Source: a virus
Strand: one strand, 5' to 3'
DNA: 63,928 nt
Virus record (IMG/VR): IMGVR_UViG_3300012147_000014
Coordinates: 1-63,928 of that record
Shown: piece after piece, positions 3,911-63,928 of the stretch
How positions within the stretch are numbered: position 1 is the stretch's first letter
Layout: each line of letters starts with the position of its first letter
Translations under genes and position numbers: made by a program
Notes under the pieces: generated by a model
Told to the model about the DNA's origin: nothing
Databases searched by the model: none
Seen by the model: only the letters and a program-made list of their open reading frames with translations

Positions 3911-3923
3911 GGGTTACCGGTGC

Positions 3924-4073: not shown

Positions 4074-4224
4074 TTTTATTTTTGGTTGATTGGTTAAGTG
4101 AAGGTGTTGATTCGTTTCCTCCTGCTCGCAATTGATCGGCTCGGCTCTCGTCCACCACCAAGGTCGAGCATTCCGACTCCGGAACAAAGCGAGAGGGTAT
4201 TGATGATGGGAGTATCCATGTCAT
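4066..4224 (-). CDS. Small hypothetical protein, 52 aa
   Basis: A 52-residue frame starting two bases after the stop of the DUF5131 gene and overlapping the next small gene. It includes the plausible structured segment STLVVDESRADQLRAGG followed by a polar tail. The tight packing supports translation. No family recognised. Confidence 0.4.
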   Translation of the reverse strand: MTWILPSSIPSRFVPESECSTLVVDESRADQLRAGGNESTPSLNQSTKNKNE

Positions 4225-4225
4225 C

Positions 4226-12851: not shown

Positions 12852-13106
12852 ATGAAAAGAGCCCTGATACTTCTATTCCTTTCCATTGCTCTAGTTTTAG
12901 GCACGGCCTGCACAAAAGAGCCGACCGGCTACGAAACTAAGATACATTTTGTCGTCGATAACGATTACTTAACGAACAAGAACTTTGAAGACTTGATGGT
13001 CGACAACTGGGAAGTTATCAATGTTCGTCGCGCGACCTCGACACGCTTTGGCCCGAATGAACGGTGGGGCAACGAATACACCATGCGAAAGGCTACCTAT
13101 GACTAA
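12852..13106 (+). CDS. Small lipoprotein, candidate conversion or exclusion factor
   Basis: 84 residues with a classic lipoprotein signal: basic N-terminus, hydrophobic core (LILLFLSIALVLG), then lipobox GTAC with Cys20. The mature part is about 65 residues. It is co-oriented with the HTH gene 9 bp upstream and its end overlaps the end of the integrase gene. Prophage-expressed lipoproteins in this position often block superinfection at the cell envelope; that role is inferred. Confidence 0.65.
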   Translation: MKRALILLFLSIALVLGTACTKEPTGYETKIHFVVDNDYLTNKNFEDLMVDNWEVINVRRATSTRFGPNERWGNEYTMRKATYD

Positions 13107-14242: not shown

Positions 14243-14349
14243 AGGCAGAAACTGCGCCCACAAATTCGCCCACGCAACATTATTCACATTACTCGCATTG
14301 CGCACTTTTCTTATTAAAAAATACGTAATTGAAGTGTTTTTAGGTCAAT

Positions 14350-49861: not shown

Positions 49862-50025
49862 TGCCAGTAAACTACACCGCACGAATTTTGTGCGCGGCTC
49901 GACATTGCACGCTTGCCTTTCGCGGGCAGTGTCGAGTCGTCGCACCTCGTTTCCGCCATTTCGCCCATGAAGCCGACGAAGCCGACGAAGCCGACGAAGG
50001 CAAGGACGGCTGACCTTATATCCAC
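49862..50025 (+). other. Gap after the clamp gene with hairpin and 9-bp repeats
   Basis: Contains an imperfect hairpin CTCGACATTGC / GCAGTGTCGAG (about 49897-49938) and about four direct repeats of GAAGCCGAC (49968-50000). No T-run, so termination is not clear. Ends at the next palindromic element. Confidence 0.4.
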
Positions 50026-50046
50026 GCATCATTATTTTAATGATGC
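50026..50046. repeat. Palindromic hairpin element, copy 8
   Basis: GCATCATTA-TTT-TAATGATGC, identical to copy 4, 27 bp upstream of the next start. Confidence 0.85.
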
Positions 50047-50073
50047 TCAACCCAAACTCAACCAAGGCAAACA

Positions 50074-50961
50074 ATGAGTAACGAAAATAAAATCAAAGCA
50101 CTACTGAAAATCTCCTTTAAGGCGACTGGCATCGGCCTCAACATTCGAGACGAGGCCATGGAAGCCGAACTAGCGCGCAATCACCAGATGGACGCGAAGC
50201 GTGTCCGCACTACCAAGAAGATTCTTGCTGGTGCGATCGATCCGATCAACTCGGAAGTGGGTAAGATTCGCCGATTCCTCAAGCTGAACTCTTTCGAGGG
50301 TATCGGTGAGACCCGCATCATGGTAGCGGCCGAGAGCGACCGCATTCGCCGTCAAGTGGCGGTTCGCGTGTCTGCGGCCTACGACGCGCTAGATGCTCTA
50401 ATCGCGGACTGGGACAACCTGATCGAGATTGAGCGCCGTGAACTCAACGGGAGCTTCGACCCGACCAACTACCCGTCGAGCGGTGAAGCCCTGCGTAGCC
50501 TATTCTCTTTCGAGTTGCAAATCGAACCCATGCCTGACCCGCATCAGTTCAGGCTCATCCAAGAGCTGACCGAGACTGAGCGCGAAGACATGGCCGTGCG
50601 CCTCGAAGTGCAGATTCAAGCCGCGCGCGCCGGCATGGAAGCTGATACCATTCGCCGCACGCTTGATCTGATCAAGGAAGTGGCCGATACGCTTGGAGAT
50701 CCTGACAAGCCGATCGTGGATAGCGAAGGCCGCAAGGGCTGCATCCCGAAGCTCCGCGACCATTTGCAACGTCTCCCCGACCTCAATATTGAGGGCAACC
50801 CTGTACTGATTCAGCTACGCGCTGAAGCACTCGCAGCCCTAGACCTCAATGCCGAGAACCTCCGCGCCCACAAGGGCACCCGTAAGCGCGTCTCCTTTAT
50901 GGCCGATAACCTTCACAAGAAGTTCCAAGGCAGCTTTGGCGACCGTGCCATCACCGCATAA
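50074..50961 (+). CDS. Hypothetical helical protein, 295 aa (DUF3150-like)
   Basis: 295 residues, almost wholly helical. Motif-like stretches are GIVEGIGETRIMVAAESD-type and DALDALIADWDNLIEIERREL. Overall pattern recalls DUF3150 proteins of phages that accompany AAA+ ATPases, and an AAA+ gene lies 3 kb downstream. The family assignment is tentative. Confidence 0.55.
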   Translation: MSNENKIKALLKISFKATGIGLNIRDEAMEAELARNHQMDAKRVRTTKKILAGAIDPINSEVGKIRRFLKLNSFEGIGETRIMVAAESDRIRRQVAVRVSAAYDALDALIADWDNLIEIERRELNGSFDPTNYPSSGEALRSLFSFELQIEPMPDPHQFRLIQELTETEREDMAVRLEVQIQAARAGMEADTIRRTLDLIKEVADTLGDPDKPIVDSEGRKGCIPKLRDHLQRLPDLNIEGNPVLIQLRAEALAALDLNAENLRAHKGTRKRVSFMADNLHKKFQGSFGDRAITA

Positions 50962-50973
50962 CCCAAATCCACA

Positions 50974-51471
50974 ATGAACGACGAAACTGAACTTAAGCCC
51001 ATCGACCGCCGTAAACCGCTGGCCGTTTCAATGATGCTAATGGAAGCGTTTGGGCGTTTTCCCGTAGATCCAGATATGTTCTATCGGGTCGCCCGTCGCT
51101 CCTCACGAGCCAAGCGCTACGACCCCGCCCGCGCTAAGACCGAAGAAGATGTGGAGCGCATCGAAGCGGCGCAGCGGAAGCGCGAGCGGAAGGCCGCCAA
51201 GAAATCGAAAAGCATTGAGCCGCTCGTTTCGGTTGTGCTTCCCAACGGCGCGTTCTACGGCCGCGTCAAGGGGGTAAAGTGCGAGTGTGGCGGGCAACTA
51301 AGAATAGACGGAGAAAACGACTGCGAAGACCCCGACTTTCGATTCCAAGTGTTTTGCGACCGGTGTAAAACTTGCGACCCAAATGGGTATCCAAGCTCAG
51401 AAGCCATCATCGGCGGTATCGCCTCTTTTTGGCAAAACACTGAGTTCTCTCATCCGAGGAACGAGGATTGA
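50974..51471 (+). CDS. Lar-like zinc ribbon protein, 165 aa
   Basis: The N-terminal half is helical and basic (AAQRKRERKAAKKSKS). The C-terminal half is a zinc ribbon VKCECGGQLRIDGEN … FCDRCKTCDPNG followed by SSEAIIGGIASFW, the order seen in restriction-alleviation (Lar-type) proteins. Function as anti-restriction is inferred. Confidence 0.55.
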   Translation: MNDETELKPIDRRKPLAVSMMLMEAFGRFPVDPDMFYRVARRSSRAKRYDPARAKTEEDVERIEAAQRKRERKAAKKSKSIEPLVSVVLPNGAFYGRVKGVKCECGGQLRIDGENDCEDPDFRFQVFCDRCKTCDPNGYPSSEAIIGGIASFWQNTEFSHPRNED

Positions 51472-51498
51472 GAGCAACGTTTTGTTCGATTCTTAATT

Positions 51499-51711
51499 AT
51501 GACAACATACATACCAGACCCAATAGAGAGAGGTGAGGCACGAGCGGAAGCCGCTTACGACGAGATGATTCAGCCCGAAGGCAAATGGAAGTGTCCTTGC
51601 GGGAGGATCTATGACCCCAAGGAGGAGGGGGAAAACTACCTCTATCCAGACCCTTACGCTCCGCCCTCATGTGGGCAGTGTGCCGAGGGGTATTTTAAAT
51701 CGAACAAATAG
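51499..51711 (+). CDS. Small zinc-binding protein, 70 aa
   Basis: 70 residues with two cysteine pairs, KCPCGRIYDPKEEG and SCGQCAEGYF, likely binding one zinc. Function unknown. Confidence 0.6.
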   Translation: MTTYIPDPIERGEARAEAAYDEMIQPEGKWKCPCGRIYDPKEEGENYLYPDPYAPPSCGQCAEGYFKSNK

Positions 51712-51754
51712 AGTAGCCGATGCCGCCGAACAACCAACGAGAAAAGATACAATT

Positions 51755-51988
51755 ATGACTACTGAAAACCAAAAACCTAAAACGAAGCCAGCGACTAAGG
51801 CATTGCCTAGCTCGACTGGTTCTCTAGCAAAAGGCGGCGACTTCTACAACGGGATCGAATGGATGGCTGCATGGATGGTTGATAACGTCGAGGTTCAAAA
51901 AGTATCCGAAGAGAAACTTCGCGTGTGGGCAACTAAAGCGTGGTTACAGCATATAGAAAAGCAGAACGGAGAGCTGAATCATGAGTGA
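51755..51988 (+). CDS. Hypothetical protein, 77 aa
   Basis: 77 residues from ATG 51755. A Lys/Pro/Thr-rich N-terminus precedes an amphipathic helix region (FYNGIEWMAAWMVDNVEVQ). It overlaps the next gene by 8 nt. Confidence 0.55.
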   Translation: MTTENQKPKTKPATKALPSSTGSLAKGGDFYNGIEWMAAWMVDNVEVQKVSEEKLRVWATKAWLQHIEKQNGELNHE

Positions 51989-52187
51989 GGATACTAGAGA
52001 GATTTTTGAGATGATGCATCGCCCAGTGGATCGTTCGAGATGGAAAAACCCAGTAATCCATAAGCTGGGGGATGACGGGCTCCCTAAGTGTGGTGGGGTC
52101 TTGGCTCTTCACAACTTAACAAATCGCACTCGCGTTAAATGGGACAAGGTAACGTGCAAAGCGTGCCTTAATCAAAGATCCAAATAA
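51981..52187 (+). CDS. Small protein with cysteine pairs, 68 aa
   Basis: 68 residues with KCGGV and TCKACLNQ as candidate zinc ligands. Overlaps its upstream neighbour, supporting translation. Confidence 0.55.
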   Translation: MSEDTREIFEMMHRPVDRSRWKNPVIHKLGDDGLPKCGGVLALHNLTNRTRVKWDKVTCKACLNQRSK

Positions 52188-52321
52188 TAATGCAACCTAT
52201 TGAATGAGCCGTAGAGGAGATGTAATTCCAGACCTCCTACGAGGGTGTATCATTGGATGCATCTTGATCGCACAAACTATAACGACTAGCTCTGGCACCG
52301 CCGGAGACGGCACTAAAAATT

Positions 52322-52675
52322 ATGAAAACAAACACAAACACCGAGGCGGCGGAAACCGTCCAAACAAGGAGCGACCAGGCGGTTGCTCCAGCAGCGACTT
52401 GTTCTCTGCATCTTTTTGAGATCAGCGCACTGGTCAGCTATCACGCTGTTATTCTCGCCGAATCGAAGGAAGCCGCACTCGCCGAGGTAGAGACATGGGA
52501 AAACGCATGGCACGACACCGGCGAGTTCGTGGACGTGTCCGACGTGGACGTGTTCGATGTCCGACCGATGAAGTCGAAGATGGAAGACTGGAACGACGAG
52601 GCGCACTGCTATACCACGGCTGCCGGTGATGCGATCCGCGCTGCCAAGGCTGCCCGAGATTCGGCGAACCAATGA
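52322..52675 (+). CDS. Hypothetical acidic protein, 117 aa
   Basis: 117 residues. LFEISALVSYHAVILAESKEAALAEVETWE is a beta-alpha unit, followed by an acidic section (VDVSDVDVFDVRPMKSKME). A frame at 52204-52419 overlapping its start is considered spurious. Function unknown. Confidence 0.6.
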   Translation: MKTNTNTEAAETVQTRSDQAVAPAATCSLHLFEISALVSYHAVILAESKEAALAEVETWENAWHDTGEFVDVSDVDVFDVRPMKSKMEDWNDEAHCYTTAAGDAIRAAKAARDSANQ

Positions 52676-52751
52676 TGAGCGAAACTGCGAATAGCGCATT
52701 GTTTTCCCACGCATTTTATAGAGTTGAAAAACTCACGCAGTATCTAATCTC

Positions 52752-52774
52752 GCGGTCATTATTTTAATGATCGC
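52752..52774. repeat. Palindromic hairpin element, copy 9
   Basis: GCGGTCATTA-TTT-TAATGATCGC, 10-base arms with one mismatch (G opposite T, a wobble pair in RNA), 31 bp upstream of the Ycf35-like gene. Confidence 0.8.
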
Positions 52775-52805
52775 ATCAACCAAAACACACGAAAGGTAAT
52801 AAAGT

Positions 52806-53210
52806 ATGAGCCACGAAATTAAAGGAACCATCGAGGTTAAAGACCTCACCGCATTCGCGAAAGCGATCGAAGAACTCAAGGGGCGCTTCCACAAAAACAA
52901 GCGCAGCTACACGATGTATAAAGGCCAGATGCCTTGCGACCACGCTGCCTCATTTGAAGGCGTCAACTACGAGATTGGCCTCAAGGAAGAGCCCACTAAG
53001 CGCGGCACCTACACTCCAGTATGGGACACCTACGGCTCCGGGGGTCGTCACGACGGCAAAATGCTCGTCGAGCGCTGCGGCAAAGACATGGGTAAGCTCA
53101 AGCAGAACTACGGCCTGCACGTGGCCGAATGTGCTGCAAAACGTAAAGGCCACACCACTCGTCGCAAGCAAAAAGCTGACGGCACAATTCAACTCGTTAT
53201 CGGAGGATAG
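52806..53210 (+). CDS. DUF1257 (Ycf35-like) protein
   Basis: 134 residues. MSHEIKGTIEVKDLTAFAKA, then ASFEGVNYEIGLKEE, YTPVWDTYGSGGRHDG, and LKQNYGLHVAECAAKRKG follow the Ycf35/DUF1257 pattern. These proteins are typically encoded beside DUF2997 and a Ycf46-type AAA+ ATPase, and both follow here. The molecular role is unknown. Confidence 0.75.
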   Translation: MSHEIKGTIEVKDLTAFAKAIEELKGRFHKNKRSYTMYKGQMPCDHAASFEGVNYEIGLKEEPTKRGTYTPVWDTYGSGGRHDGKMLVERCGKDMGKLKQNYGLHVAECAAKRKGHTTRRKQKADGTIQLVIGG

Positions 53211-53216
53211 CCACTA

Positions 53217-53399
53217 ATGCCTATCCCTCTTTGCACATACGAATTGGTAGGCGAAGACGACTGGAGTCGCGGCCTATATCGGAACGAAGCTGGCCGCACC
53301 GTCGTGGACGTAGATGGCCAGCTTCATTCAATCTCCGACTGGGGTGAGCCTATCTCGCTCATCGGATACCCAACACCTAAACCAGAAACAAAGGAATAA
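53217..53399 (+). CDS. Small protein, 60 aa
   Basis: 60 residues; YELVGEDDWSRGLYRNEAGRT is a short beta-sheet-like segment. Six bp after the Ycf35-like gene and 4 bp before DUF2997, so part of the module by position. Confidence 0.55.
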   Translation: MPIPLCTYELVGEDDWSRGLYRNEAGRTVVDVDGQLHSISDWGEPISLIGYPTPKPETKE

Positions 53400-53403
53400 T
53401 ATC

Positions 53404-53610
53404 ATGGCAAAAGAACACGTAACTATTGATTTCTCGCCTGACGGCTCCGTCAAGGTAGAAGCTCACAATTACACGGGGAACTCCTGCGAAGAGGCGACCC
53501 GTTACATCGAAGAAGCGCTCGGTGTCGAAGGCACAAGCAAGAAGAAGGCTGAGTTCTACAAAGCCTCCCGTAAGGTCAGCGCGAAGCAAAAGCTTGGGGG
53601 TGTCCGGTGA
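53404..53610 (+). CDS. DUF2997 family protein
   Basis: 68 residues. VTIDFSPDGSVKVEAHNYTG, then SCEEATRYIEEALGVEGTS and a Lys-rich tail match DUF2997, a companion of Ycf35 and Ycf46-like proteins. The GTG of the next gene overlaps its stop. Confidence 0.75.
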   Translation: MAKEHVTIDFSPDGSVKVEAHNYTGNSCEEATRYIEEALGVEGTSKKKAEFYKASRKVSAKQKLGGVR

Positions 53611-53879
53611 GTGGCGGGCATATCATCAACTTCCGTCCTGACGGATCATTCGACGGGCTCCACACTGACCGCACCGACCTCTCTGAGATTGGTAGCATGG
53701 AGGTGAGGCGCGCGTCTTGGGTGAATTTCAATGGCACTTCCCAGAAATGGGAAGTGCGCTGGAAGCCGCAGGCGAAAGCGTCCGTATTCACGCACGAGTC
53801 GCGCGAGGAATGCCTCGCGTGGGAGCGTGAGCAACTTCAACAGGAGCCCCCGTATGAACTGGAAACAGCGACTCATTAG
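53607..53879 (+). CDS. Hypothetical protein, 90 aa
   Basis: 90 residues from a GTG start overlapping the DUF2997 stop. IINFRPDGSFDGLHTD at the N-terminus resembles the start of DUF2997, so it may be a divergent paralogue. The C-terminal part is WEVRWKPQAKASVF and helical. Confidence 0.6.
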   Translation: MSGGHIINFRPDGSFDGLHTDRTDLSEIGSMEVRRASWVNFNGTSQKWEVRWKPQAKASVFTHESREECLAWEREQLQQEPPYELETATH

Positions 53880-54042
53880 CGAGGCCGTGAGCCGTGTCCG
53901 CGCGGTTCTCACCTTCAGCGCCGACGAGAAGGGAGCTCGCCTCAATGGAGGCATTCACCTCGATCATGGGCAGGGCGGCTACGAGTTACCGTCGCCCAAG
54001 AAACCAACACGCAAACGCGCTAAAAAGCGCACAACCCGATAA
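53854..54042 (+). CDS. Small basic-tailed protein, 62 aa
   Basis: 62 residues from ATG 53854, overlapping the previous gene. GGIHLDHGQGGYELPSP is similar to the C-terminus of the 142-residue first gene of this operon; a Lys/Arg-rich tail follows. Function unknown. Confidence 0.55.
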   Translation: MNWKQRLISEAVSRVRAVLTFSADEKGARLNGGIHLDHGQGGYELPSPKKPTRKRAKKRTTR

Positions 54043-54070
54043 CGGTAACCACTAATCAGAAAGGCAAATT

Positions 54071-55654
54071 ATGATCTCAAAACGAATCGAATACTACTCA
54101 CGGGCGGGCTACCCCTGCCTATTCATTCCGACGCACGAAGAGCAGCGGATCGGTCGCGAAATTATCGCTGGCCTACAAAGTATCACCAAGGACATTGAGG
54201 GCGAGCCATGCCCCGCCCGCGAGGTCTACTCGTGGTCTTGCACCCAAGGCCTGAACCGCGTCGACACCGAGGAAGCTGGCGACTCTGACATGGATAGTCC
54301 CGTTGAAGTCCTGCAGGCGTTCCTTAACGTGGCGCGTCCGGGATCCGTATTCATCCTGCAAGACTTCCACTTGTTCTTAGATGATCCTTCCCCTCACATT
54401 ATCCGGCTCTTCAAGGACGCACTGGAGCACGCTAAATCGCACCAGAAGATGATGATTATTATCGGCTGCCGCGTCGTGCTTCCGCCTGAAGTCGAAAAGC
54501 TTGTCACGCTGGTTGAGTTCAACCTCCCGACCACAGAAGAGCTAGCTGAAGTGGTGCTTGATCCGCTGGCCGAATCAACTGGCGTTGTGTTGACTCCCGA
54601 GGCTCGCCGCAGCCTTGCCGTAGCCGGTGGCGGACTGACTAGCTACGAGTTTCAAGATGCGCTTGCACTCTCCTACGTGGAGGCGAAGAACGAGCACGGT
54701 AAGCTTGAGTTCTCTGAGAGTGTTGTTTATCGCGAAAAGATTCAGAACGTCAAGAAAAGCGGGTTGGTCGAGCACATTGAAAGCAACCTCAACCCCGACG
54801 ACCTTGGCGGCCTTGACGTGTTCAAGGAGGCTATGGGCAAAGTCCGCAAGCTGTTCAGTCAAGAAGCGGTCAATTTTCGGTTGCCCGTCCCGAAGGGCTG
54901 CTTGCTTGTCGGCCCTCCTGGGTGCGGAAAATCTCTCAGCGCAAAAGTTAGCGCCGTAATGCTAGGAGGCATTCCACTTTTCAAGTGCGATATGGGTAAG
55001 ATGTTCGCTGGCATCGTCGGTGCTAGCGAGGCGAACATGCGCAACATGATCGACCTCGTGGAAGCCATGAGCCCATGCGTTCTCTGGCTCGACGAAATCG
55101 AGCGCGGTCTCTCCGGCGGAGAGTCCTCTGGCAAAACTGACGGAGGCACGACCGATCGGATGATCGGCACCTTGTTAAACTGGCTGCAGGAGAAGACGAA
55201 GCCCGTCTACGTTATCGCAACATCCAATGACACCTCTCAGTTGCCGGCTCAACTTTTGCGGGCTGGCCGCTTTGATCAGCTTTGGTTTGCCGACCTCCCG
55301 AACGAAGTTGAGCGTGTAGAAATTTGGAGCATTATGATTCGACGCACCGAGGGCGACCCAGCGAAATACGACCTCCCTATGCTAGCCGCCGAAACCGTAG
55401 GCTGGTCGGGTTCAGAAATCGAAGCACTCTGGAATGATGCGCGGATCGACGCCTTCGCTCGCTCCGACGACCCAGCGAGCCCGGAAGAGCCGCATACGCT
55501 TGAAATCTGCAATCTCTCAAGATTCCGCACCCCTCTTTCTAAGAGTCAGTCTGGCAAGATCGAGAATATGCGTAAATGGGCGGAAGCCCAAGCACGCCCC
55601 GCTACCTCTCCGCTCAAGAAGTCCCAAGCCAAGTCGGTTCGGGTCTTGAACTAA
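54071..55654 (+). CDS. Ycf46-like AAA+ ATPase
   Basis: 527 residues. The N-terminal degenerate half (AGYPCLFIPTHEEQRIGREI; VFILQDFHLFL; MIIIGCRVVLPPEVEKLV) is typical of Ycf46. The C-terminal AAA+ domain has Walker A GPPGCGKS, Walker B VLWLDEIE, sensor 1 VIATSN and Arg finger RAGRFDQ. Ycf46 proteins form ATPase rings with unclear substrates. Linked to Ycf35 and DUF2997 homologues in one operon. Confidence 0.88.
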   Translation: MISKRIEYYSRAGYPCLFIPTHEEQRIGREIIAGLQSITKDIEGEPCPAREVYSWSCTQGLNRVDTEEAGDSDMDSPVEVLQAFLNVARPGSVFILQDFHLFLDDPSPHIIRLFKDALEHAKSHQKMMIIIGCRVVLPPEVEKLVTLVEFNLPTTEELAEVVLDPLAESTGVVLTPEARRSLAVAGGGLTSYEFQDALALSYVEAKNEHGKLEFSESVVYREKIQNVKKSGLVEHIESNLNPDDLGGLDVFKEAMGKVRKLFSQEAVNFRLPVPKGCLLVGPPGCGKSLSAKVSAVMLGGIPLFKCDMGKMFAGIVGASEANMRNMIDLVEAMSPCVLWLDEIERGLSGGESSGKTDGGTTDRMIGTLLNWLQEKTKPVYVIATSNDTSQLPAQLLRAGRFDQLWFADLPNEVERVEIWSIMIRRTEGDPAKYDLPMLAAETVGWSGSEIEALWNDARIDAFARSDDPASPEEPHTLEICNLSRFRTPLSKSQSGKIENMRKWAEAQARPATSPLKKSQAKSVRVLN

Positions 55655-55709
55655 ACCACAACCTGTCGGCGCGGGCATACCCGCGCCGGCATAACCTTCT
55701 GCAATAAAC

Positions 55710-56189
55710 ATGAAGATACACAAATTCATCACTGATTCCGACCACGGCATGCACTGCGGCCTCTTCTTAACTGAAGCCGAAGTCGAAGCCGCCATGCGAG
55801 ATTACATGCTCGGCCACAAGGCCGACATTCCTGAAGATGCCGGCCTCGAAGCCATGGGCGAATACTACTCCAAGTTCGGCCTTGGCGATAACTACATGAA
55901 CTGGGACTCCGAATGGGTTGACGTGCCAGATGCTCAACCCGAGTCGGATCACATCAAGATCAATCACTTCCTAACACTCGCCATGCTCGGCACCAGCGCA
56001 GGAAGTTCCACGGGCGAGAAGCGCGCCCACCGTCTTGCCTGGCTGATGCGCCAAGCTATCGAAGAATGCGCAGGTATCGACATAGACGGAGCCAAGGGCG
56101 CAACATTACTAATGAAATATGCCAACTCCGGCGGCGACGGTTTTTGCATGGTTCGAGATTTACTTCAAGAAAGGGGATTCACGCTATGA
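55710..56189 (+). CDS. Hypothetical protein, 159 aa
   Basis: 159 acidic residues, beginning MKIHKFITDSDHGMHCGLF. ATGA overlap with the next gene. No family known. Confidence 0.6.
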   Translation: MKIHKFITDSDHGMHCGLFLTEAEVEAAMRDYMLGHKADIPEDAGLEAMGEYYSKFGLGDNYMNWDSEWVDVPDAQPESDHIKINHFLTLAMLGTSAGSSTGEKRAHRLAWLMRQAIEECAGIDIDGAKGATLLMKYANSGGDGFCMVRDLLQERGFTL

Positions 56190-56746
56190 AAAAACTCACC
56201 GATGACGAACGTCACGACCTGATCGGCCGCACGATCCGTAACTTCAAGCAAGGCCGCCAGTGGCTGCAAGATATGCTTGACGCTGGAATCGGCTTCCATT
56301 GGGACGAAGACCCTTACGCAATTGTTTACTTTGGCGGCGAAAAGGCGGGGCAACGCTTTTTCTGTAGTATCGAAGCGCAGTTTGTCTCGGCCAACCTCAA
56401 CAAGTGCCGCAAAATAGCCGGAGACGAAACGATCTTCTGGGAGGAAATGGCACCCGATACTGGCCTTACCCCTACCCTTGCCTCTGTTCCTGTCCCTGCT
56501 CCGAAACTGTTCTACTTACAGCTAAAGGGAAACCATGGCTTTATGATCTGGTGGCGCGCGGGCGACCACGGTTACGGAACCTGCATTAAGGAAGCCCGGG
56601 CTTGGACGAAGGAGGAACTCGACAGAGAGGTCTCTAGTACTGACGACAGTAAGAAGTATAGAGTCTGGCCTAAGGATTTAATTGACGAAGCCGCCGCCCG
56701 CATAGGCAGCGGGGCTATCTGTGAACTGGAGTCCGCCCCGGCATGA
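56186..56746 (+). CDS. Hypothetical protein, 186 aa
   Basis: 186 residues from ATG 56186, overlapping the previous stop. Helical start (DDERHDLIGRTIRNFKQGRQ), Pro-rich middle, and aromatic segment NHGFMIWWRAGDHGYGTCI. Next gene overlaps by 4 nt. Confidence 0.6.
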   Translation: MKKLTDDERHDLIGRTIRNFKQGRQWLQDMLDAGIGFHWDEDPYAIVYFGGEKAGQRFFCSIEAQFVSANLNKCRKIAGDETIFWEEMAPDTGLTPTLASVPVPAPKLFYLQLKGNHGFMIWWRAGDHGYGTCIKEARAWTKEELDREVSSTDDSKKYRVWPKDLIDEAAARIGSGAICELESAPA

Positions 56747-56997
56747 ACTCGCCAAGTGAGCCAAAGGAACTGCCGCGCTTGCCCTGCGATATGACCTGCA
56801 AATGCGGGCATACCGCATGGTGGGAGCGGTTCAGCGAAGATGACCAAGGCGAAGAGCTTCCGCCGAGCATCTTTCGTTGCCCCGGCTGCGGGTGGATGTG
56901 GGAACGCACCTACGCACCCGCTCCCGAGTTTTCAAACTCACTGCGCGTCGTCGTTATTAAAACACTCTCCTATCAAACATCACTCAATCTAAAATAA
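56743..56997 (+). CDS. Zinc-ribbon protein, 84 aa
   Basis: 84 residues. CDMTCKCGHTAWWERF and FRCPGCGWMWER provide two CxxC-type knuckles, a zinc ribbon. Possibly DNA- or RNA-binding; role unknown. Confidence 0.6.
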   Translation: MNSPSEPKELPRLPCDMTCKCGHTAWWERFSEDDQGEELPPSIFRCPGCGWMWERTYAPAPEFSNSLRVVVIKTLSYQTSLNLK

Positions 56998-57000
56998 AAT

Positions 57001-57363
57001 ATGGAAATTCCAATTACAGTTAATGAAGATCTAATCCCGTTTCTCAAGTTGGAGCCACTCTGGGCTAAGGGTGTTGAGCGCCAACACAACCTGCACTCGC
57101 TTGTTAATGTGATGCTCATTAAGTCGCCGCAAGATTCAGGAGGGTTGCTGGAGGGGATACTCGCCAGCGCAGCGAAGCCTCGCTTCTTGGTCGTCGCAGC
57201 CACCCGCAGCACGAAGCCATGTGACTGCAGACTCGAAGGCTGTCAGCAAATCGACGGCAATAAGGTCACGTACTCGATGATGTATCGCGACCTCATGCAA
57301 GCCTGCCGCGATGCAGAGACAGAATTTCTCCGCCTAAATCCACCACTAACCCATCAACCATAA
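57001..57363 (+). CDS. Hypothetical protein, 120 aa
   Basis: 120 residues with no recognised family. FLVVAATRSTKPCDCRLEGC has a small Cys cluster. The stop shares one base with the next start. Confidence 0.55.
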   Translation: MEIPITVNEDLIPFLKLEPLWAKGVERQHNLHSLVNVMLIKSPQDSGGLLEGILASAAKPRFLVVAATRSTKPCDCRLEGCQQIDGNKVTYSMMYRDLMQACRDAETEFLRLNPPLTHQP

Positions 57364-57737
57364 TGAGCGTAAGAACATACAATATCACCCTTGAAGACGG
57401 TTCAAAGCATAAAATCAGATCCACCGTCACTTACGGCGAAATGCTGCAAGATGCGATCAAAGAATTTGAACACGAAATCGCCAAGATTGAAGAGACCACG
57501 CAAAACGCCGACGGCTACCTTGAGTGGCTAAAGCACCGGAACAGAGAGTATTTCGCCGACGACGTGCTTAAATTTATGTATGTCACCGATGGCACGATCG
57601 ACGACGAAAGCGACGACGAAATCAGCGGAGCAGACTTCGCGGAGCACGTCCTTTTTCTTGCGGGCGAGCAAGGCTTGACTCCGCACCGCTACTTTGAGGA
57701 TCGACGCGACGCCGACCAGACTTGGATGACCCGCTAA
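57363..57737 (+). CDS. Hypothetical acidic protein, 124 aa
   Basis: 124 residues, helical middle, strongly acidic C-terminal half (IDDESDDEISGADFAEHVL). Possibly a DNA mimic by charge, but this is only composition. Confidence 0.55.
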   Translation: MSVRTYNITLEDGSKHKIRSTVTYGEMLQDAIKEFEHEIAKIEETTQNADGYLEWLKHRNREYFADDVLKFMYVTDGTIDDESDDEISGADFAEHVLFLAGEQGLTPHRYFEDRRDADQTWMTR

Positions 57738-57755
57738 CCTTAACCACAGAAACAC

Positions 57756-58022
57756 ATGGAAAACGACCTGTCCGACCCAAAAAGATATACGCTCAAGAAA
57801 ATAGCAGACATGACCACGGTCAAGTCCGGTCTATTCGATCACTATGTAGATTACTGGTGGCCTGTGACGCCAGATGAAGAACTGATCTTTTCCCATGGGA
57901 GGTCTCCGCAGTGTAATCCGGATAAACGGATCGTTGCTCGCCTTCTCAGAATGTATCCGACATGCACCGCGCGTAAGATTCCCGTGGTCTTCATCCCTAT
58001 TGATCCGAGCGACTACTGCTAG
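57756..58022 (+). CDS. Hypothetical protein, 88 aa
   Basis: 88 residues (YTLKKIADMTTVKSGLFDHY), no family recognised. It ends 17 bp before hairpin copy 10. Confidence 0.55.
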   Translation: MENDLSDPKRYTLKKIADMTTVKSGLFDHYVDYWWPVTPDEELIFSHGRSPQCNPDKRIVARLLRMYPTCTARKIPVVFIPIDPSDYC

Positions 58023-58038
58023 TCGCTGGAACCACCTA

Positions 58039-58053
58039 TCATTAAAATAATGA
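58039..58053. repeat. Palindromic hairpin element, copy 10
   Basis: TCATTA-AAA-TAATGA (15-bp core), ending only 3 bp before the ATG of the methyltransferase gene, so it would occupy its ribosome-binding region. Confidence 0.8.
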
Positions 58054-58056
58054 CCC

Positions 58057-59655
58057 ATGACTGAAACCGTAATACGCCCACCGATTCCAAGGAGGCAGAA
58101 GGGTAAAACACTTGACCAAGACGGCCTCCAAGAAGCGCTGGATAGCTCGCCTGATGTGCTCAATAAAGGCACGGCGCAATTCTTCACGCCAAAGGATTAC
58201 GCGCGCGTCTTTGCGCTGCCACTTTCGCCAGTGCGCCCCGTGATATTCGACCCTCATTGCGGCGATCATTCGCTGCTCAGCGGAGCCAGTTTTGAGCACA
58301 CGAAAACGCTACTCGGCACCGACCTTGACCGTCGGTCGCAGTCCTCCCAAGTCCGCACAATTATCGGCGATCTAAATAACATTCTGCCGCTCATGCAGCA
58401 GGCTAAGTGTTACTTTGATTTACTCGTTATGAACCCGCCCTTTGGGCTTCGCTGGCCAGCCCCAGAAGTCAGCCTTAAGCACCGGCGCCCGTCTCGGGTA
58501 ATTGATGGAGTTGTCCACATGGATAGCGTCCAGGCGTCGTGGTTGATCGCACTTGACCGCCTCTCCGAGTATGGCGAGGGCATGATGATTGCGCCGCAAC
58601 CAGTTGTCGAAAAGCTCATTGTGCCGTGTCCAACCTACTCACGAGTCTGGATGCACGTCACCTTGCCGCAGTTCTTTCCCGGCGTGCGGGACACCCGCAA
58701 GATGGCCGTGCTCTACTTTGCTAAAAAACACCGCAACGGTGGAAAGCCGTGCAAGGTCAATATGCCGAGCTCCGCCCTGCAGGTTGTCGCTCAATATATG
58801 CGGCGCTACGCTAACCAGCGCCCAACATGGCTAGGCAAGACTGAGCGCATTGACGTAGGGACTCGCCACATGCGCGACACAACGACTCCCGAGCGCTTCC
58901 TTATGGTTCGTGAAGAGTGGGAAGCCCGTAAGCGCCAGAACCGCCCAAAATTCAACATTTGGCTGGGTGACAACGGATACATCGGCACTCACCTTTCTGG
59001 CTTTGATCAAGTCTCTCGCCGCATCTCCAAAGACTTGGCTCGGGCACTCCACGGGCTGCGGGGTCGCCGGCCTGTCGAACTCGTACTCACTAAGAGCGAT
59101 CGGCTCGCACTGCTCCACACTGTCCGCGAGGCGGGCTGGAAGGTTGACCCTAAACTGATCAAGGCTGTCGAGTATTCCGTTCAGGAATACCACCGCTCAC
59201 GCACTCCCTTTACCAAGCCCACCCTAGCTATGCGTGTGGCTTGGGCAGAAGAGGAAGACCGGCTTACTGCGGCCAACGATTGGCTTGGCTTCAAGGCCGG
59301 AGAAACCTATCGCTTAACAAGCGATACCTTCGAGGGTCGTAAAATTGAGTTTCGCGAGAACCCTGACCTCGGGGAAGAGGAAGTTCTCGTGTCCGGCCAA
59401 GAGTTGATGATCTGCGTCAACGACTCCGTTGGCCAAGTCCACGGATTCACTCAATACGCGCTCGATAAAGACACAATTCGCGCTGAATACGAAGACGACG
59501 ACGATACCTGTCGAGTCCTCTCCACTGTCGATGAATTTCACTCTATTCGTGATCTGATGCTGCACTTCAACATGCCGGACGTTCCCGACATAGCTGAAGT
59601 CAGTCCAGACCTTTACCAACACTACAGAAATAAACTCAAAGCACTAGAAACATGA
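58057..59655 (+). CDS. N6-adenine methyltransferase-like protein (NPPF)
   Basis: 532 residues. AQFFTPKDYARVFA and IFDPHCGDHSLL (motif I-like, atypical) lead to the catalytic DLLVMNPPFGLRW. This is the order found in HsdM/type IIG methylases. The C-terminal 280 residues may contain target-recognition or coupling functions. Third adenine methylase of this genome, on the plus strand and with no obvious nuclease partner. Its start codon is directly behind hairpin copy 10. Confidence 0.82.
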   Translation: MTETVIRPPIPRRQKGKTLDQDGLQEALDSSPDVLNKGTAQFFTPKDYARVFALPLSPVRPVIFDPHCGDHSLLSGASFEHTKTLLGTDLDRRSQSSQVRTIIGDLNNILPLMQQAKCYFDLLVMNPPFGLRWPAPEVSLKHRRPSRVIDGVVHMDSVQASWLIALDRLSEYGEGMMIAPQPVVEKLIVPCPTYSRVWMHVTLPQFFPGVRDTRKMAVLYFAKKHRNGGKPCKVNMPSSALQVVAQYMRRYANQRPTWLGKTERIDVGTRHMRDTTTPERFLMVREEWEARKRQNRPKFNIWLGDNGYIGTHLSGFDQVSRRISKDLARALHGLRGRRPVELVLTKSDRLALLHTVREAGWKVDPKLIKAVEYSVQEYHRSRTPFTKPTLAMRVAWAEEEDRLTAANDWLGFKAGETYRLTSDTFEGRKIEFRENPDLGEEEVLVSGQELMICVNDSVGQVHGFTQYALDKDTIRAEYEDDDDTCRVLSTVDEFHSIRDLMLHFNMPDVPDIAEVSPDLYQHYRNKLKALET

Positions 59656-59945
59656 TTGATCTAACACCACCTATTCCATTCAGCACCACGCCGCGCTTCC
59701 TGTTCGCAGATAGCGCGTATGGCGAGGGCGAGGGCGTGACTTATCGCTTCTTCGTCGTCCACACATCACACCCGCGCATGGTAGTCGAGGTCATACCCGA
59801 CGACGCAGGCAAAGTAGAGTTTCGTATGGCCGAACAAATCGACCCTTTTGCCAAAAACACTATCGGGGTTCTCATGCAAGAAATCGGCGAATTTGCCGTC
59901 GCTCAGCTCAACGCGAGAATTGAGGAAAGCGAAGAGGTCGAATAA
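59652..59945 (+). CDS. Hypothetical protein, 97 aa
   Basis: 97 residues with ATGA overlap to the methylase. Beta-rich (YRFFVVHTSHPRMVVEVIP) and acidic C-terminus. Last gene before the retron RNA region. Confidence 0.6.
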   Translation: MIDLTPPIPFSTTPRFLFADSAYGEGEGVTYRFFVVHTSHPRMVVEVIPDDAGKVEFRMAEQIDPFAKNTIGVLMQEIGEFAVAQLNARIEESEEVE

Positions 59946-59999
59946 CAATTTAGGTTCGTCGTCGCGCCTAGATCAGTAGCAGAACAAGTCGTCCGGAGA

Positions 60000-60020
60000 G
60001 TAGTGACCTCTAGTAAAAAG
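60000..60020 (+). promoter_or_regulatory. Conserved box upstream of retron RNA 1
   Basis: GTAGTGACCTCTAG followed by A-rich bases. The same box (GTAGTGACCCTCTAG) precedes retron RNA 2 at 60363. Both lie 82-85 nt upstream of the msr repeat, so they belong to the duplicated unit and may be a promoter or part of the RNA leader. Confidence 0.5.
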
Positions 60021-60063
60021 ATTACTTGGATGCAGCTAAATATCGAAGCGTGGTTACGGCCCC

Positions 60064-60300
60064 ATCGCTCTAGTTGGAGCTTGGCTATCCAAAACTGTTT
60101 CCGAGGTCTCGTGCGCATCGCCGAGGTTCAACCGTTCGCAGGAATCAGTAAAGCAAGGCCGTTGGTTCCGATCACCCGGGCTGCAACCGCCGAGCTGGAT
60201 CTCGTAAGTGGGAAGAGGTCGCAAGCGACCTCCGAAATCCCCATCGGCGGATGCCTCCCGGGTTCAATGAAATCAACTTCGCAAGCCCAACTAGAGTGAT
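60064..60300 (+). ncRNA. Retron msr-msd RNA, copy 1
   Basis: a1 (60064-60083) pairs with a2 (60282-60300) over 19 bp with one bulged A. The msr segment 60082-60151 is identical to 60448-60517 except at one base. The msd is a long imperfect hairpin (60161-60277): GTTGGTT/AATCAAC, CCCGGG/CCCGGG, CCGCCGA/TCGGCGG, GGAT/ATCC and a tip GAGGTCG-CAAG-CGACCTC. The a1-msr-msd-a2 order and the retron RT downstream identify the element. Confidence 0.85.
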
Positions 60301-60362
60301 AAACTTTCAGGCAAATCAACAAGCTCATGGGACTGAAGAGAAAGGAAACCCGATCGGGGGGC

Positions 60363-60384
60363 GTAGTGACCCTCTAGCAGAAAG
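60363..60384 (+). promoter_or_regulatory. Conserved box upstream of retron RNA 2
   Basis: GTAGTGACCCTCTAG followed by CAGAAAG, the counterpart of the box at 60000, 85 nt upstream of the second msr repeat. Confidence 0.5.
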
Positions 60385-60430
60385 TCGGTAGATCTGAGTA
60401 TCTGAAACCATAGGTGAGTTGTGACTCCTG

Positions 60431-60647
60431 GCACCCAAATGAACGTCTGGCTATCCAAAACTGTTTCTGAGGTCTCGTGCGCATCGCCGAGGTTCAACCG
60501 TTCGCAGGAATCAGTAAGAACGTCCCGCGTTCCTGGAGAACTAAAGCCTGAATGCGTGCCGTATATTTCCTTAGTGAGAAGAAAATATACCCGCACGCAT
60601 TCCTGCTTTAGTGATCCAGGAACGCTTCGCAGGCCTCGTGAGGGTGC
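60431..60647 (+). ncRNA. Retron msr-msd RNA, copy 2
   Basis: a1 (60431-60449) and a2 (60630-60647) pair over 15 bp in three blocks (GCACCC/GGGTGC and two inner blocks), with sequences unlike copy 1 but preserved complementarity, for example T-A to C-G near the msr border. The msr is 60448-60517. The msd hairpin (60528-60624) is nearly perfect: 9 bp CGTTCCTGG/CCAGGAACG, 8 bp ACTAAAGC/GCTTTAGT, 10 bp GAATGCGTGC/GCACGCATTC, 8 bp GTATATTT/AAATATAC. Confidence 0.87.
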
Positions 60648-60687
60648 AAAACTTTCATCCAACTAAATCAACTAAAACCAATCCATT

Positions 60688-60912
60688 ATGGCACATCAAA
60701 AATACAGCAAATCGCAATACCAGCGCGACCTTGAAGACGGTATCGTCACCTACGATAAGGCGACGATCGAGCAAATCGAAAAGATACCAACCAGTAAGCA
60801 CGACCCGAAGAAGCGCGGCCGGAAAGCGAACACGTTCTCGCCGAACTTCATCCGGACACACCACGTCGATTTATTCAATGCTGCTTACGAGCGGTACTTG
60901 AAGAGTAATTAA
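60688..60912 (+). CDS. Small basic protein of the retron locus, 74 aa
   Basis: 74 residues between the second retron RNA and the reverse transcriptase, 20 bp before the latter. Helical N-terminus (QYQRDLEDGIVTYDKATIE), a basic patch with an AT-hook-like core (DPKKRGRKANTF) and an aromatic C-terminus. No family recognised. As the only small gene between RNA and RT it is the leading candidate for a retron accessory or effector. Confidence 0.65.
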   Translation: MAHQKYSKSQYQRDLEDGIVTYDKATIEQIEKIPTSKHDPKKRGRKANTFSPNFIRTHHVDLFNAAYERYLKSN

Positions 60913-60932
60913 CCATCACCCCAAGGAAATCC

Positions 60933-61856
60933 ATGAACCGAATTGAGATACCAAAGGGCAACGGCAAGACCCGCGTGATCTGGGTGCCGACAGCTACTGA
61001 AAAGCATATCGCTCGCGAAGTGCTCACCTCCTTGGAATCGGTCTATCGGCCTCGGGAGTGTGTTCACGGGTTTACCTTTGGGCGCAGTCCCGTCACCAAC
61101 GCACTCGCGCACGCGGGCGAATGGCGCTTCACCCTCTCGATGGATATTTCCGCGTTCTTTGACAACGTAGATGTTCGGAAGGTTACTGGGGTTATGTGGG
61201 CGGTAGATGGTGCCAACAACAGAGCCTTCGTGGAACACACTCCTGACTGCGATCTGCTCGCTTTCCCCGACTGTAGAGCCGTCCAAGGCCTGCCGTGTTC
61301 ACCTATTATCGCGAACATGGCAATGGATGATGCCGACGGCCGCATACTCGCCATGCGCGAGCAGTCGCGGCTTGGGTGGAATTTCGTCTACACTCGCTAC
61401 GCCGACGACCTGACCTTTTCCTTCAACCATCCTAATGTCGGGCGGCGCTTAATTGCAGCCATCCCGGGAGTGTTGGCCGACTACGGATTTGAGCTCAACC
61501 CGAGCAAGACGCACTGGCAGGAGGCTACCTGTGGCTACCGTAAAGTGACCGGCGTATCCGTGGGGAAGAGCAACATACATATTCCCCGATCAGTGAAGCG
61601 TAAAATCCGTGCCGCCGAGCACCAAGCTAAGGTCGGGATGAAGCCGAAAACTTGGGCGCGATTCGAGGGCAACAAATACCGCCAACAAGACCAACTCGAA
61701 GGACTCATGGAGTGGGCGACTCTCAAGCGTCCGAGGCGGCGCAGCACCGGCACCGTAGAATCGCCGCTGCCCGTCCACGGAAGTCGAGAAGTCCCTGGTC
61801 GGCCGCTCACTAGAAACACTTTCGCGACTGTCCAAGAGAGAGTCATCACGGCATAA
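60933..61856 (+). CDS. Retron reverse transcriptase
   Basis: 307 residues, the usual retron RT length. In order: RT1 IPKGNGKTRVIWVPT; RT2 with GFTFGRSPVTNALAHAG, containing the retron-specific NAxxH (NALAH); RT3 LSMDISAFFDNV; RT4 QGLPCSPIIANMAM; RT5 catalytic YTRYADDLTFSF; RT6 GFELNPSKTHW; RT7 YRKVTGVSV with the retron-specific VTG; then a basic thumb. It would copy msd RNA into branched msDNA from the tandem RNAs upstream. No fused effector domain. Confidence 0.94.
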   Translation: MNRIEIPKGNGKTRVIWVPTATEKHIAREVLTSLESVYRPRECVHGFTFGRSPVTNALAHAGEWRFTLSMDISAFFDNVDVRKVTGVMWAVDGANNRAFVEHTPDCDLLAFPDCRAVQGLPCSPIIANMAMDDADGRILAMREQSRLGWNFVYTRYADDLTFSFNHPNVGRRLIAAIPGVLADYGFELNPSKTHWQEATCGYRKVTGVSVGKSNIHIPRSVKRKIRAAEHQAKVGMKPKTWARFEGNKYRQQDQLEGLMEWATLKRPRRRSTGTVESPLPVHGSREVPGRPLTRNTFATVQERVITA

Positions 61857-61873
61857 TTAAAGAAACCTAACCT

Positions 61874-62119
61874 ATGATTAAATCAAAATCCTTCGGACAA
61901 CTTGCAACAATGCTTTCAGAAAAGCACGGGAAAAACCGACTGCGGTCGCACTTAGGTTTGTCGTGGCGCGATTTCAATATGCGGTTAAAGGGGTACCTTC
62001 CCCCTGGCTCGCGTCAGTGGCTATTTAGAGCTGACTGGGCTGAGGCGAGCCAAGAGATAACAAATCAAAACCCGAACGGTTCAAGTGAGCCAACTCAACC
62101 AAAACCAAACCATGCTTAA
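61874..62119 (+). CDS. Small hypothetical protein, 81 aa
   Basis: 81 residues, basic (SEKHGKNRLRSHLGLSWRDFN could be a helix-turn-helix-like region). It lies 17 bp after the RT and overlaps the helicase start by 8 nt, so RT, this gene and helicase form one unit. Confidence 0.55.
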   Translation: MIKSKSFGQLATMLSEKHGKNRLRSHLGLSWRDFNMRLKGYLPPGSRQWLFRADWAEASQEITNQNPNGSSEPTQPKPNHA

Positions 62120-63890
62120 ATTCAAAAATTTCCAATTGGACGACCTGGCGCGAGCCGGCTGTCGTGATTCACTCATTCTCTCGTGGGACAAAGGCGGAGG
62201 CAAGACCTACGCCGCATTCGCGTGGCCTCTCATCAAAGACGCCAAGCGTGTTCTGATCGTCGCGCTCGAAGACCTGCACCCGCAGTTCAAGGACACGGCT
62301 CGACAGTTTGGCTACAGCCTGCTCCCACTTACGTCGATCAGCGACCTCTACTCGTGGAAGCTCGACAGGAAGAGCAGGGTCAATAAACCGCAGTTCTTCA
62401 TCACCACCTTCCAGCAGCTCGGCTACAACGCATCCGACGAAACCGCCGGCGAAGAAAAGTTCGATGGCTCCGTGGAGTATCCGGCTACAGTGATCAAGAG
62501 CCGCAAGCAACTAATCAAGGGCATGCAGTCTAAGGTGACTTTCTTGGAGCTTTCGGAGGGTGTCGGTGAATCTCAAAATGGTATTTTCTGCACCTTAAAG
62601 CCATCGCTCGCGACTATGCTGGCGACACACGACTCATTTGACTGCGTTGTGGTCGACGAAGGCGTGCGGCTCCAATCGACTGACTCCTATATTTCAAAGG
62701 GTGTCCGGCGGCTTGAGCCACTTTATCGAATGATTATGACCGCGACTCCGATCAAAAACCGACTAGAGTCGTTCTTTTGGCTCGGGCATTGGGTTGCAGG
62801 CTCTCCGAAAGTTGCAAATGAAATTTGGCCTTATGATCCCACTTCCGAGTCCCGTGAGCGTTTCGCGAATGACCACTCACAGGAAGATCGATTTCTCACG
62901 CGGGAGGACGTTTACTTCGAGACGAATCGAAAGACGAGGAAGATTGCCAAGCGGTCGGCGCGCATTTGCAACATTCACCGCCTATGGAAACTCCTCAGTC
63001 CGCTAGTTTTGCGCCGACGGAAGTGCGATTTCGGAGAGGATATTGTGCCGAAACTCTTTCATTTTGTCGCCGTCCCATTTGGCGCAGCGCAGAAAAACAC
63101 CTATCGGGAGTGGGTTGAGAATCCTCCGACGGTAACAAAGGATGGGGCGGATATTAAAAACGCCCGAGTTAGAGCAGCTATCCAAATCGGCTTGCTGCGC
63201 CAAGCGGCGCTCTGCCCAAATTCGATTAAGCTCTACCCTTATCAAAGTGGTGAAGCTATGACCCCGAAACTCGCCGCTGTTCTCGGAATTATTTCGGAGC
63301 GGTTGATGCTCGGCGAACAAGTGATGGTTGGATCAAGTTTTCACGACTTCTCTGAAACACTCGACGGCCTACTTCGCGGAGCTGGCGTGGCTAGTCTTCG
63401 GCTTGACGGCCTGACCGCACCAAAGAAACGCGGAGCTCTCGCTCAGAAATTTAAGAACCGGGAGTACTCTGTTATGGTTGCCGGCCAAAAAGCGATGTCG
63501 GAAGGCCACTCTTTCGAGTGCTGTAACAACCTTATCGTGCCATCGATTGATTGGGCGTTCGATGTGAACGACCAAATCATCGACCGGGTTCATCGGCTCA
63601 CCTCGACCAAGCCTGTAAATATCTGGATCATCCAAACGGATGATTCGATCGATCAGCCGATTGCCAAGCTCTTCAAGGACAAATCCGATTCGTCCAGTCT
63701 AGCTTTTGACGGGGTTCTGACGGAGGAAGTTATTCAGGAGGTGAGCCTTCAGCAACTTGCGAACACTGCCTGCGAAACTTTCAACTCGGCCTCACAGACT
63801 CTCGATGAGAGTGCTCTCTACGAGGACTGGATAGCCAAGCTGAAACCGAAGTTGAGAGAGGCTCAAGCTTGTTTCTGTGCGAAATCCTAA
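62112..63890 (+). CDS. SNF2/SF2-type helicase
   Basis: 592 residues from ATG 62112 (the frame extends to 62085). Motif I is SWDKGGGKTYAAFAW, the DEAH-like motif II is CVVVDEGVRL (His replaced), motif III is IMTATPIKNRLE. The C-terminal lobe has GVASLRLDGLT, MSEGHSFECCNNLIVPSIDW and DQIIDRVHRL (motif VI). Likely a DNA translocase of the Snf2 group. Paired with an NPPF methylase 2.5 kb upstream, as in anti-restriction or recombination units; role inferred. Confidence 0.85.
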   Translation: MLKFKNFQLDDLARAGCRDSLILSWDKGGGKTYAAFAWPLIKDAKRVLIVALEDLHPQFKDTARQFGYSLLPLTSISDLYSWKLDRKSRVNKPQFFITTFQQLGYNASDETAGEEKFDGSVEYPATVIKSRKQLIKGMQSKVTFLELSEGVGESQNGIFCTLKPSLATMLATHDSFDCVVVDEGVRLQSTDSYISKGVRRLEPLYRMIMTATPIKNRLESFFWLGHWVAGSPKVANEIWPYDPTSESRERFANDHSQEDRFLTREDVYFETNRKTRKIAKRSARICNIHRLWKLLSPLVLRRRKCDFGEDIVPKLFHFVAVPFGAAQKNTYREWVENPPTVTKDGADIKNARVRAAIQIGLLRQAALCPNSIKLYPYQSGEAMTPKLAAVLGIISERLMLGEQVMVGSSFHDFSETLDGLLRGAGVASLRLDGLTAPKKRGALAQKFKNREYSVMVAGQKAMSEGHSFECCNNLIVPSIDWAFDVNDQIIDRVHRLTSTKPVNIWIIQTDDSIDQPIAKLFKDKSDSSSLAFDGVLTEEVIQEVSLQQLANTACETFNSASQTLDESALYEDWIAKLKPKLREAQACFCAKS

Positions 63891-63928
63891 AATATTTTTT
63901 CACAGATAAACCTCGAGAAAAGGAAAGT
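63891..63928. other. Right end with 11-base direct repeat
   Basis: 38 bases after the helicase gene, AT-rich (AATATTTTTTCAC). The last 11 bases (AAAAGGAAAGT) equal the first 11 bases of the window. Confidence 0.9.

Follow-up and report, generated by a model that had tools for sequence, protein, structure and literature searches.

Two predicted msr-msd RNA units upstream of a single retron reverse transcriptase in a phage genome

Retrons are best known as bacterial defense cassettes composed of one RNA, one reverse transcriptase (RT), and one effector. Their RTs carry a VTG motif, and phage-linked members such as Ec73 have one RNA per RT. Diversity-generating retroelements are another setting in which a phage RT accompanies a variable sequence part. 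Sections of a review (PMC6868368) describe the standard retron cassette, in which a single msr and msd precede the RT, and give NAxxH as the region X motif of retron RTs. The same sections describe Retron-Nex1 (Ne160) of Nannocystis exedens, where several msr/msd copies, apparently duplicates, have no RT within a kilobase; Retron-Sen1 (Se72), for which a second msr-like part (an “alternative msr”) was proposed within one cassette; and the Ec73 retron, which is carried by the phage-like element phiR73 (PMC6868368).

The DNA analyzed here (the window) constitutes a 63,928-base virus record whose source is probably a temperate phage. Its genes include an integrase (13103–14305, minus strand), a terminase, a sliding clamp, RadC, adenine methyltransferases, RecT, and a RecE-like gene. 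Close to the right end of the record lies a retron-type RT of 307 amino acids (60933–61856, plus strand). The RT matches Pfam RVT_1 (3.5e-21) and PADLOC retron RT models down to 1.2e-39, with the type not clear. Alignment places NALAH (NAxxH-type), YADD (YxDD), and VTG motifs within it, the set expected of a retron RT. The solved structures closest to it in a PDB sequence comparison are retron RTs, and the top 18 Foldseek matches of its AlphaFold2 model (pLDDT 77, 12 sequences in the input) against the PDB are retron RT chains. In contrast to diversity-generating retroelements, then, the window has an RT nearest to those of retrons in both sequence and fold, and msr and msd queries found no copy in the window beyond chance except the second unit described below, which is not the pattern of such an element.

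Judged by its sequence, the plus strand upstream of this one RT holds two complete msr-msd units. In each, the order is a 5′ box (GTAGTGACC..TCTAG), arm a1, msr, an msd hairpin, CTTCG, arm a2, and a 3′ box (AAACTTTCA). An initial annotation of the window had proposed two units of roughly 310 nt, each headed by an upstream box. It placed them correctly; the units recur every 366 nt, and their boxes match at 12 of 14 positions (59995–60008 and 60358–60371). The 5′ box of unit 1 (GTAGTGACC TCTAG..AAAAAG) spans 59995–60023, an extent set by eye and alignment. Arm a1, recognized as an inverted repeat, follows at 60064–60083, its final G preceding GCT, and the msr at 60084–60151 begins with the candidate branching G (60084). 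This msr folds into a helix, P1, that encloses a hairpin, P2, with a bulged U and a CAU loop. The msd template (60152–60281; 130 nt with a CTTCG end) has inferred boundaries and is followed by arm a2 at 60282–60300, which pairs with its own a1, and by the 3′ box at 60301–60309, read directly and aligned with that of unit 2. In unit 2 the 5′ box covers 60358–60387 (extent by eye), arm a1 covers 60430–60449 (pairing starts at 60431, and the final G again precedes GCT), and the msr covers 60450–60517, with the candidate branching G at 60450. The msd template at 60518–60629 (112 nt, CTTCG end, boundaries likewise inferred) is a long hairpin with arms at 60527–60559 and 60593–60625; arm a2 at 60630–60647 pairs with its own a1, and the 3′ box, read and aligned in the same way, lies at 60649–60657. 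The hallmark of a retron, an a1/a2-closed msr-msd RNA beside an RT, is found twice. An open reading frame (ORF) of 74 amino acids (60688–60912, plus strand) with no family match separates the RNA units from the RT. The heptamer GAACGTC occurs at both 60441–60447 and 60518–60524, flanking the 70-nt repeat of unit 2 on both sides; it may reflect chance or a trace of template exchange.

The two units are alike in one part and different in the others. A 70-nt repeat (60082–60151 and 60448–60517, spacing 366) is identical at 69 positions, confirming that the msr copies differ at one base. In gapped alignments, identity is 67/68 for the msr counted from the branching G on, 68/125 for the msd, 11/20 for a1, and 10/19 for a2, so the arms and msds are close to unrelated. 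Pairing is nonetheless kept. The units' own a1/a2 duplexes reach −30.1 and −21.1 kcal/mol for units 1 and 2, the latter with internal loops in the helix, whereas crossed duplexes reach −12.9 and −4.9 kcal/mol. The annotation had proposed just this, a constant msr joined to divergent templates and arms that preserve their pairing. Compared with shuffles, the RNA units fold with z scores of −4.2 (unit 1) and −6.0 (unit 2), and the predicted DNA products fold with −4.1 and −13.1.

The near identity of the msr copies, in what is a virus record, could also indicate a recent duplication or an assembly artefact in which one copy is a relic. This strikes us as very improbable. Each unit is closed by its own pair of arms, both msds are stable, and copy 1 is not degenerate, since it keeps the candidate branching G and scores 35.8 with our unit descriptor compared with 28.9 for copy 2. 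Furthermore, several units with diverged or different sequence are carried by three of the retron-type RT loci compared with the window (designated by L-numbers, with W for the window), namely L012, L014, and L074.

It is useful to contrast this arrangement with the described systems. Single-RNA retrons (Retron-Eco1/Ec86, Eco7/Ec78, Eco2/Ec67) resemble the window in RT family and fold, in their NAxxH-type and VTG motifs, and in an a1-msr-msd-a2 RNA upstream of the RT. The window type differs from them by having at least two different templates per RT, no recognized effector, a short RT N-terminus, a grouping with viral contigs among the sampled rows, and, in some relatives, exchangeable stems. 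The nearest precedent is the set of Retron-Nex1 repeats; in the window, by contrast, the tandem copies precede a single RT, their msr being constant and their msds unrelated. Retron-Sen1 has one msd copied in both directions, whereas the window has two msds, each with its own msr and arms. Compared with Ec73, the window has two RNAs and lies in a phage region with replication and nucleotide genes. Among the papers listed by our open-access literature searches, we found no report of a retron with several templates for one RT. The retron class itself is known; the multi-template form appears to be a variant that we have not found described.

Several scans bear on how readily such units arise by chance. 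In dinucleotide shuffles of the 2.2 kb upstream of the window RT, none of 2000 gave a unit at the weaker window score; the descriptor used was partly shaped on the window units themselves. A pair of units, whatever their scores, arose in 1 of 2000 shuffles for the window, in 0 of 2000 for L012, and in 2 of 2000 for L014. W, L012, L016, and the L010 group served to shape the descriptor over its four versions; L014 stood outside the msr alignment, though its fold had been inspected beforehand. A first a1/a2 descriptor that disallowed bulges was dropped, as it passed over the true arms of the window and reported a false pair there. The annotation had suggested a search with known retron msr-msd models; 4227 Rfam covariance models searched against 50000–63928 at E up to 1 gave 0 matches. 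Between 59900 and 61000, a sigma-70 promoter scan found none, and a terminator scan found 1 terminator-like site compared with 1.7 in shuffles.

Relatives of the window RT were gathered by profile. The RT's own peptides gave three stretches in IMG/VR, none confirmed as relatives, and a search with an exact 30-nt msr pattern gave none. A profile search returned 348 relatives in 402 viral stretches, a second profile returned 359 in 567 viral stretches, and bacterial genomes yielded at least 582 relatives among at least 589 stretches; the best 80 were taken in each case. In a tree of 74 chosen rows, the window falls within an all-viral group of 18 (support 96/95), which three gammaproteobacterial loci adjoin; in most rows of the group the RT starts almost at the fingers, leaving a short N-terminus. 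At E ≤ 1e-55, bacterial genomes gave 0/387 in the phylum of G009, where the positive control was absent, and around G010 they gave 1/369 in the class and 1/140 in the family, both being the genome of L089, a training row.

The msr is recognizable across these relatives. GGCT is common to 11 msrs in seven loci, as is a hairpin whose N(A/T)T loop has a closing G-C pair. The GGCT, which follows the a1 arm, is invariant among the 11 aligned msrs, which were partly chosen by it, and a MAFFT alignment leaves helix P1 unaligned. A P1/P2 descriptor matched 12 times in the 21.7 kb upstream of 22 clade RTs compared with 34 times in 530 kb elsewhere; for 169 other retron-type loci the counts were 17 in 161 kb upstream and 122 in 2,987 kb. 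With the whole-unit descriptor, 14 units were found in the 22 clade loci compared with 1.5–1.6 expected from shuffles: two in the window, four in L012, two in L014, and one each in L008, L010, L011, L015, L019, and L020. No unit was found in 13 of the 22 loci, and the single units in L015 and L019 may be chance matches, since shuffles predict 1.5–1.6 over the same loci. The stronger window unit has the highest score of the 14, and the weaker one scores below the units of L008, L010, L011, and L020. In 140 of the 169 control loci, 13–18 units were found compared with 6–8 expected. One of these, L147 on an Acidisphaera contig, has two whole-unit matches (3679 and 4338), which may be chance or another double unit.

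The window is not the sole locus with more than one template. L012 has four units, at 4087, 4285, 4503, and 4790; every a1 pairs best with the a2 of its own unit, with a margin of only 0.6–1.3 kcal/mol for two of the four, and for two of the four a2 arms the strongest partner is an a1 from another unit. L014 has two units, with own arms at −13.8 and −6.6 and crossed arms at −5.6 and −3.3. The largest array seen, in L074 (IMGVR_UViG_3300031950_000001, 3862–4866), comprises about five tandem units before one RT. Here a1, msr, and a2 are near-identical in four units, the fourth unit is divergent, and the msds differ, being most alike in units 2 and 5. In L185 (IMGVR_UViG_3300037247_001602, 4164–4500), whose retron RT falls outside the clade of the window, an msr-like part occurs twice (47 nt, 87% identical) with hairpins after each copy. 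Some related viruses thus appear to carry up to about five templates per RT. The annotation's premise that one RNA per RT is usual agrees with the review sections cited above; the rarity it implied has a limit, because several viral contigs among the fetched RT loci carry more than one template, and the window locus is not a lone oddity. Upstream of the RT in L174 (4170–4870) lie several long arm-like helices, each enclosing hairpins, which are perhaps another multi-unit array.

How widely the trait is distributed depends on how it is sought. A search for direct repeats in the first 30 relatives saw no tandem msrs, missing them because the msrs have diverged, and folding scans of relatives revealed structured stretches. 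Direct repeats were also surveyed over the 1.5 kb upstream of the RT at 184 of 191 loci. Only W, L074, and L185 have both copies within ~1.1 kb of the RT; in L027, L119, L126, L137, and L144, one repeat copy lies 1.2–1.5 kb upstream of the RT. In a second tree, of 42 rows, L074 belongs to a mostly viral clade (20 rows, 100/99) that excludes L185. On this tree the “several templates” label requires 6 changes compared with a mean of 5.7 for shuffled labels. As this is no fewer than for shuffled labels, the trait is scattered and does not form a single inherited block; it may have been gained or lost often, or been missed where msrs diverged.

A second kind of array separates the recognition part from the templates even further. 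L008, L010, L011, and L020 have one msr head followed by 3, 4, 3, and 3 msd/a2 modules, respectively. The head is nearly constant, being identical over 70 nt in L008 and L010, and its single a1 forms duplexes of similar strength with all of the a2 arms (−28.9 to −34.7). The module stems differ both between modules and between close relatives, with the same alleles turning up in different combinations: L008 and L020 have module 2 in common, as L010 and L011 largely do, and module 3 is identical in L011 and L020. Ungapped arm identity at one position falls as low as 0.14, partly through register shifts. Native module arms average −36.2 (13 modules) and arms drawn from different modules average −21.9 (150 of 156 combinations, 6 near-identical ones having been dropped); 4 of these 150 are as stable as the weaker native arms. 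Folding of native and mixed arms thus indicates that stems change while pairing is kept. The later modules of such arrays, which have no msr, may yield a single long msDNA. In L010, a queuine tRNA-ribosyltransferase-like gene (3937–4998, phrog_887), possibly for base modification of phage DNA, separates the msd array from the RT.

We think it likely that the window encodes a two-template phage retron, in which one RT joins a constant recognition part to exchangeable templates and makes two different msDNAs. The RT would recognize the constant msr (UGGCU, helix P1, and bulged hairpin P2) in the RNAs of both tandem units. Through its own a1/a2 helix, each RNA would present its branching G (60084 or 60450) across from the point where the template starts, CUUCG|a2; the RT would prime at the G after a1 and copy the msd up to the msr boundary. 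We infer priming at this G, the cDNA ends, and the use of both RNAs. The expected outcome is two unrelated hairpin msDNAs of ~130 and ~112 nt, which, as the annotation had proposed, might serve two triggers or two targets.

The role of these stems is a more tentative matter. In the L010 group, changing stems between constant flanks point to an outside partner that itself changes. It is possible, with rather less than even confidence on our part, that the stems are under changing selection and work on other players with no dedicated toxin, the simplest form being decoys or ligands for DNA-binding or defense proteins of the host or of a rival phage; stem variability is the one observation that suggests this role. 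The broader proposition is a little more doubtful still: that phage-borne multi-template retrons use one RT and an array of 2 to about 5 exchangeable msd cassettes to produce changing decoys or inhibitors in conflict with host defenses or other phages. If so, a multi-template retron would be the hairpin counterpart of a cassette array.

The genes around the RT were considered with other roles in mind. One is an ordinary defense retron of RT, RNA, and effector, whose effector would be the 74-amino-acid ORF, an 81-amino-acid ORF, the SNF2-type helicase, or a distant gene, and whose second unit would widen sensing. The clear retron RT and msr-msd are those of such a cassette, and some known retrons have ORFs between RNA and RT, as parts of the review note (PMC6868368). 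The helicase matches the defense-system ZorD/DpdE helicases in PADLOC (4.9e-18 and 3.1e-16) but is better matched by the phage helicase family phrog_62 (4.4e-39), and a search of the two small ORFs for family matches found none. Methyltransferases near the window RT also matched PADLOC defense models. No PADLOC retron effector model matched any of 5 window neighbor proteins or 10 neighbor proteins of relatives, the latter set taking in a clamp loader, DnaB, thymidylate synthase, and a queuine tRNA-ribosyltransferase-like protein, and no known effector was found in or beside the cassette. The ATPases neighboring relatives gave weak IetA and mad8 PADLOC matches only, among them the ATPase near the L007 RT (IetA, 2.3e-4). 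When ORFs of 28 loci were clustered, those shared most widely encoded an AAA ATPase (8 loci), a VWA-type protein (5), and a MoxR-type ATPase (4), all 1.3–7 kb from the RT, and no gene directly adjoining the RT was shared beyond close relatives; antisense ORF clusters over RT and ATPase genes were set aside as by-products. A defense retron of this kind seems unlikely to us, and an effector, if there is one, may be of an unrecognized kind. MoxR-type ATPase and/or VWA metallopeptidase (DUF2201) genes lie near the RTs of L014, L015, L167, L174, and L184; other members of the set of loci, the window included (54071–55654), have a different AAA ATPase.

Replication or nucleotide genes lie in these neighborhoods as well. 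The SNF2-type helicase is near the window RT and the sliding clamp gene is 11 kb upstream of it; near the RTs of relatives are DnaB helicase (L016), a clamp loader (L007), and thymidylate synthase (L012). The msDNAs or RNAs could accordingly be hairpin primers, loading sites, or titrants of phage proteins that serve phage replication or regulation and not conflict. Such sites should be conserved, yet close relatives swap stems, and a comparison of the window msds with the rest of the window gave nothing above chance level (best E 0.35, 12 nt). We regard this role as improbable.

That same phage carries RecT- and RecE-like genes, and engineered retrons have been used for recombineering, as another source also describes (PMC12548924). 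RecT might then anneal msDNA donor strands into phage or host DNA. The annotation had described the locus as beside a RecT system, which is too strong: RecT (9041–10081, minus strand) is ~50 kb off in the record, or ~11 kb if the ends join. The best match of the msds within the window is at chance level, and the window units, whose msds the annotation had suggested comparing with host and phage genomes, matched none of the 50,697 phage records searched at E ≤ 1. The L012 array DNA had no match in phage records either, the L010 array found in eight relatives' records only homologous arrays and matches of E 0.05–0.8, and its search against plasmids gave 9 records with a best E of 0.2. The hairpins are, moreover, long and self-paired. 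Natural recombineering was rejected on this lack of matches in the window, the phage records, and the relatives' records, and is highly unlikely.

Overall, the interpretation offered by the initial annotation was partly supported, and the two-template reading may be relevant in several ways. If it is correct, viruses with several exchangeable templates per RT and no recognized effector would be using retron chemistry to make sets of structured DNAs, and the apparent presence of up to about five templates in some relatives suggests that these small DNAs form a set open to change. The split between a constant recognition part and a free template part would bear on the purpose of msDNA, as well as on the design of retrons for producing several DNAs simultaneously. 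Because the two hairpins are unrelated and share an RT, the RT's requirements and the action of the msd can also be tested cleanly.

Two further features were noted among the relatives. The RTs of L009, L013, and L017 (431–456 amino acids) have similar-looking C-terminal extensions and match RVT_1 alone in Pfam; the extension is perhaps a fused accessory domain. L009 also has, at 1727–2674, an ORF rich in 24-nt in-frame repeats.
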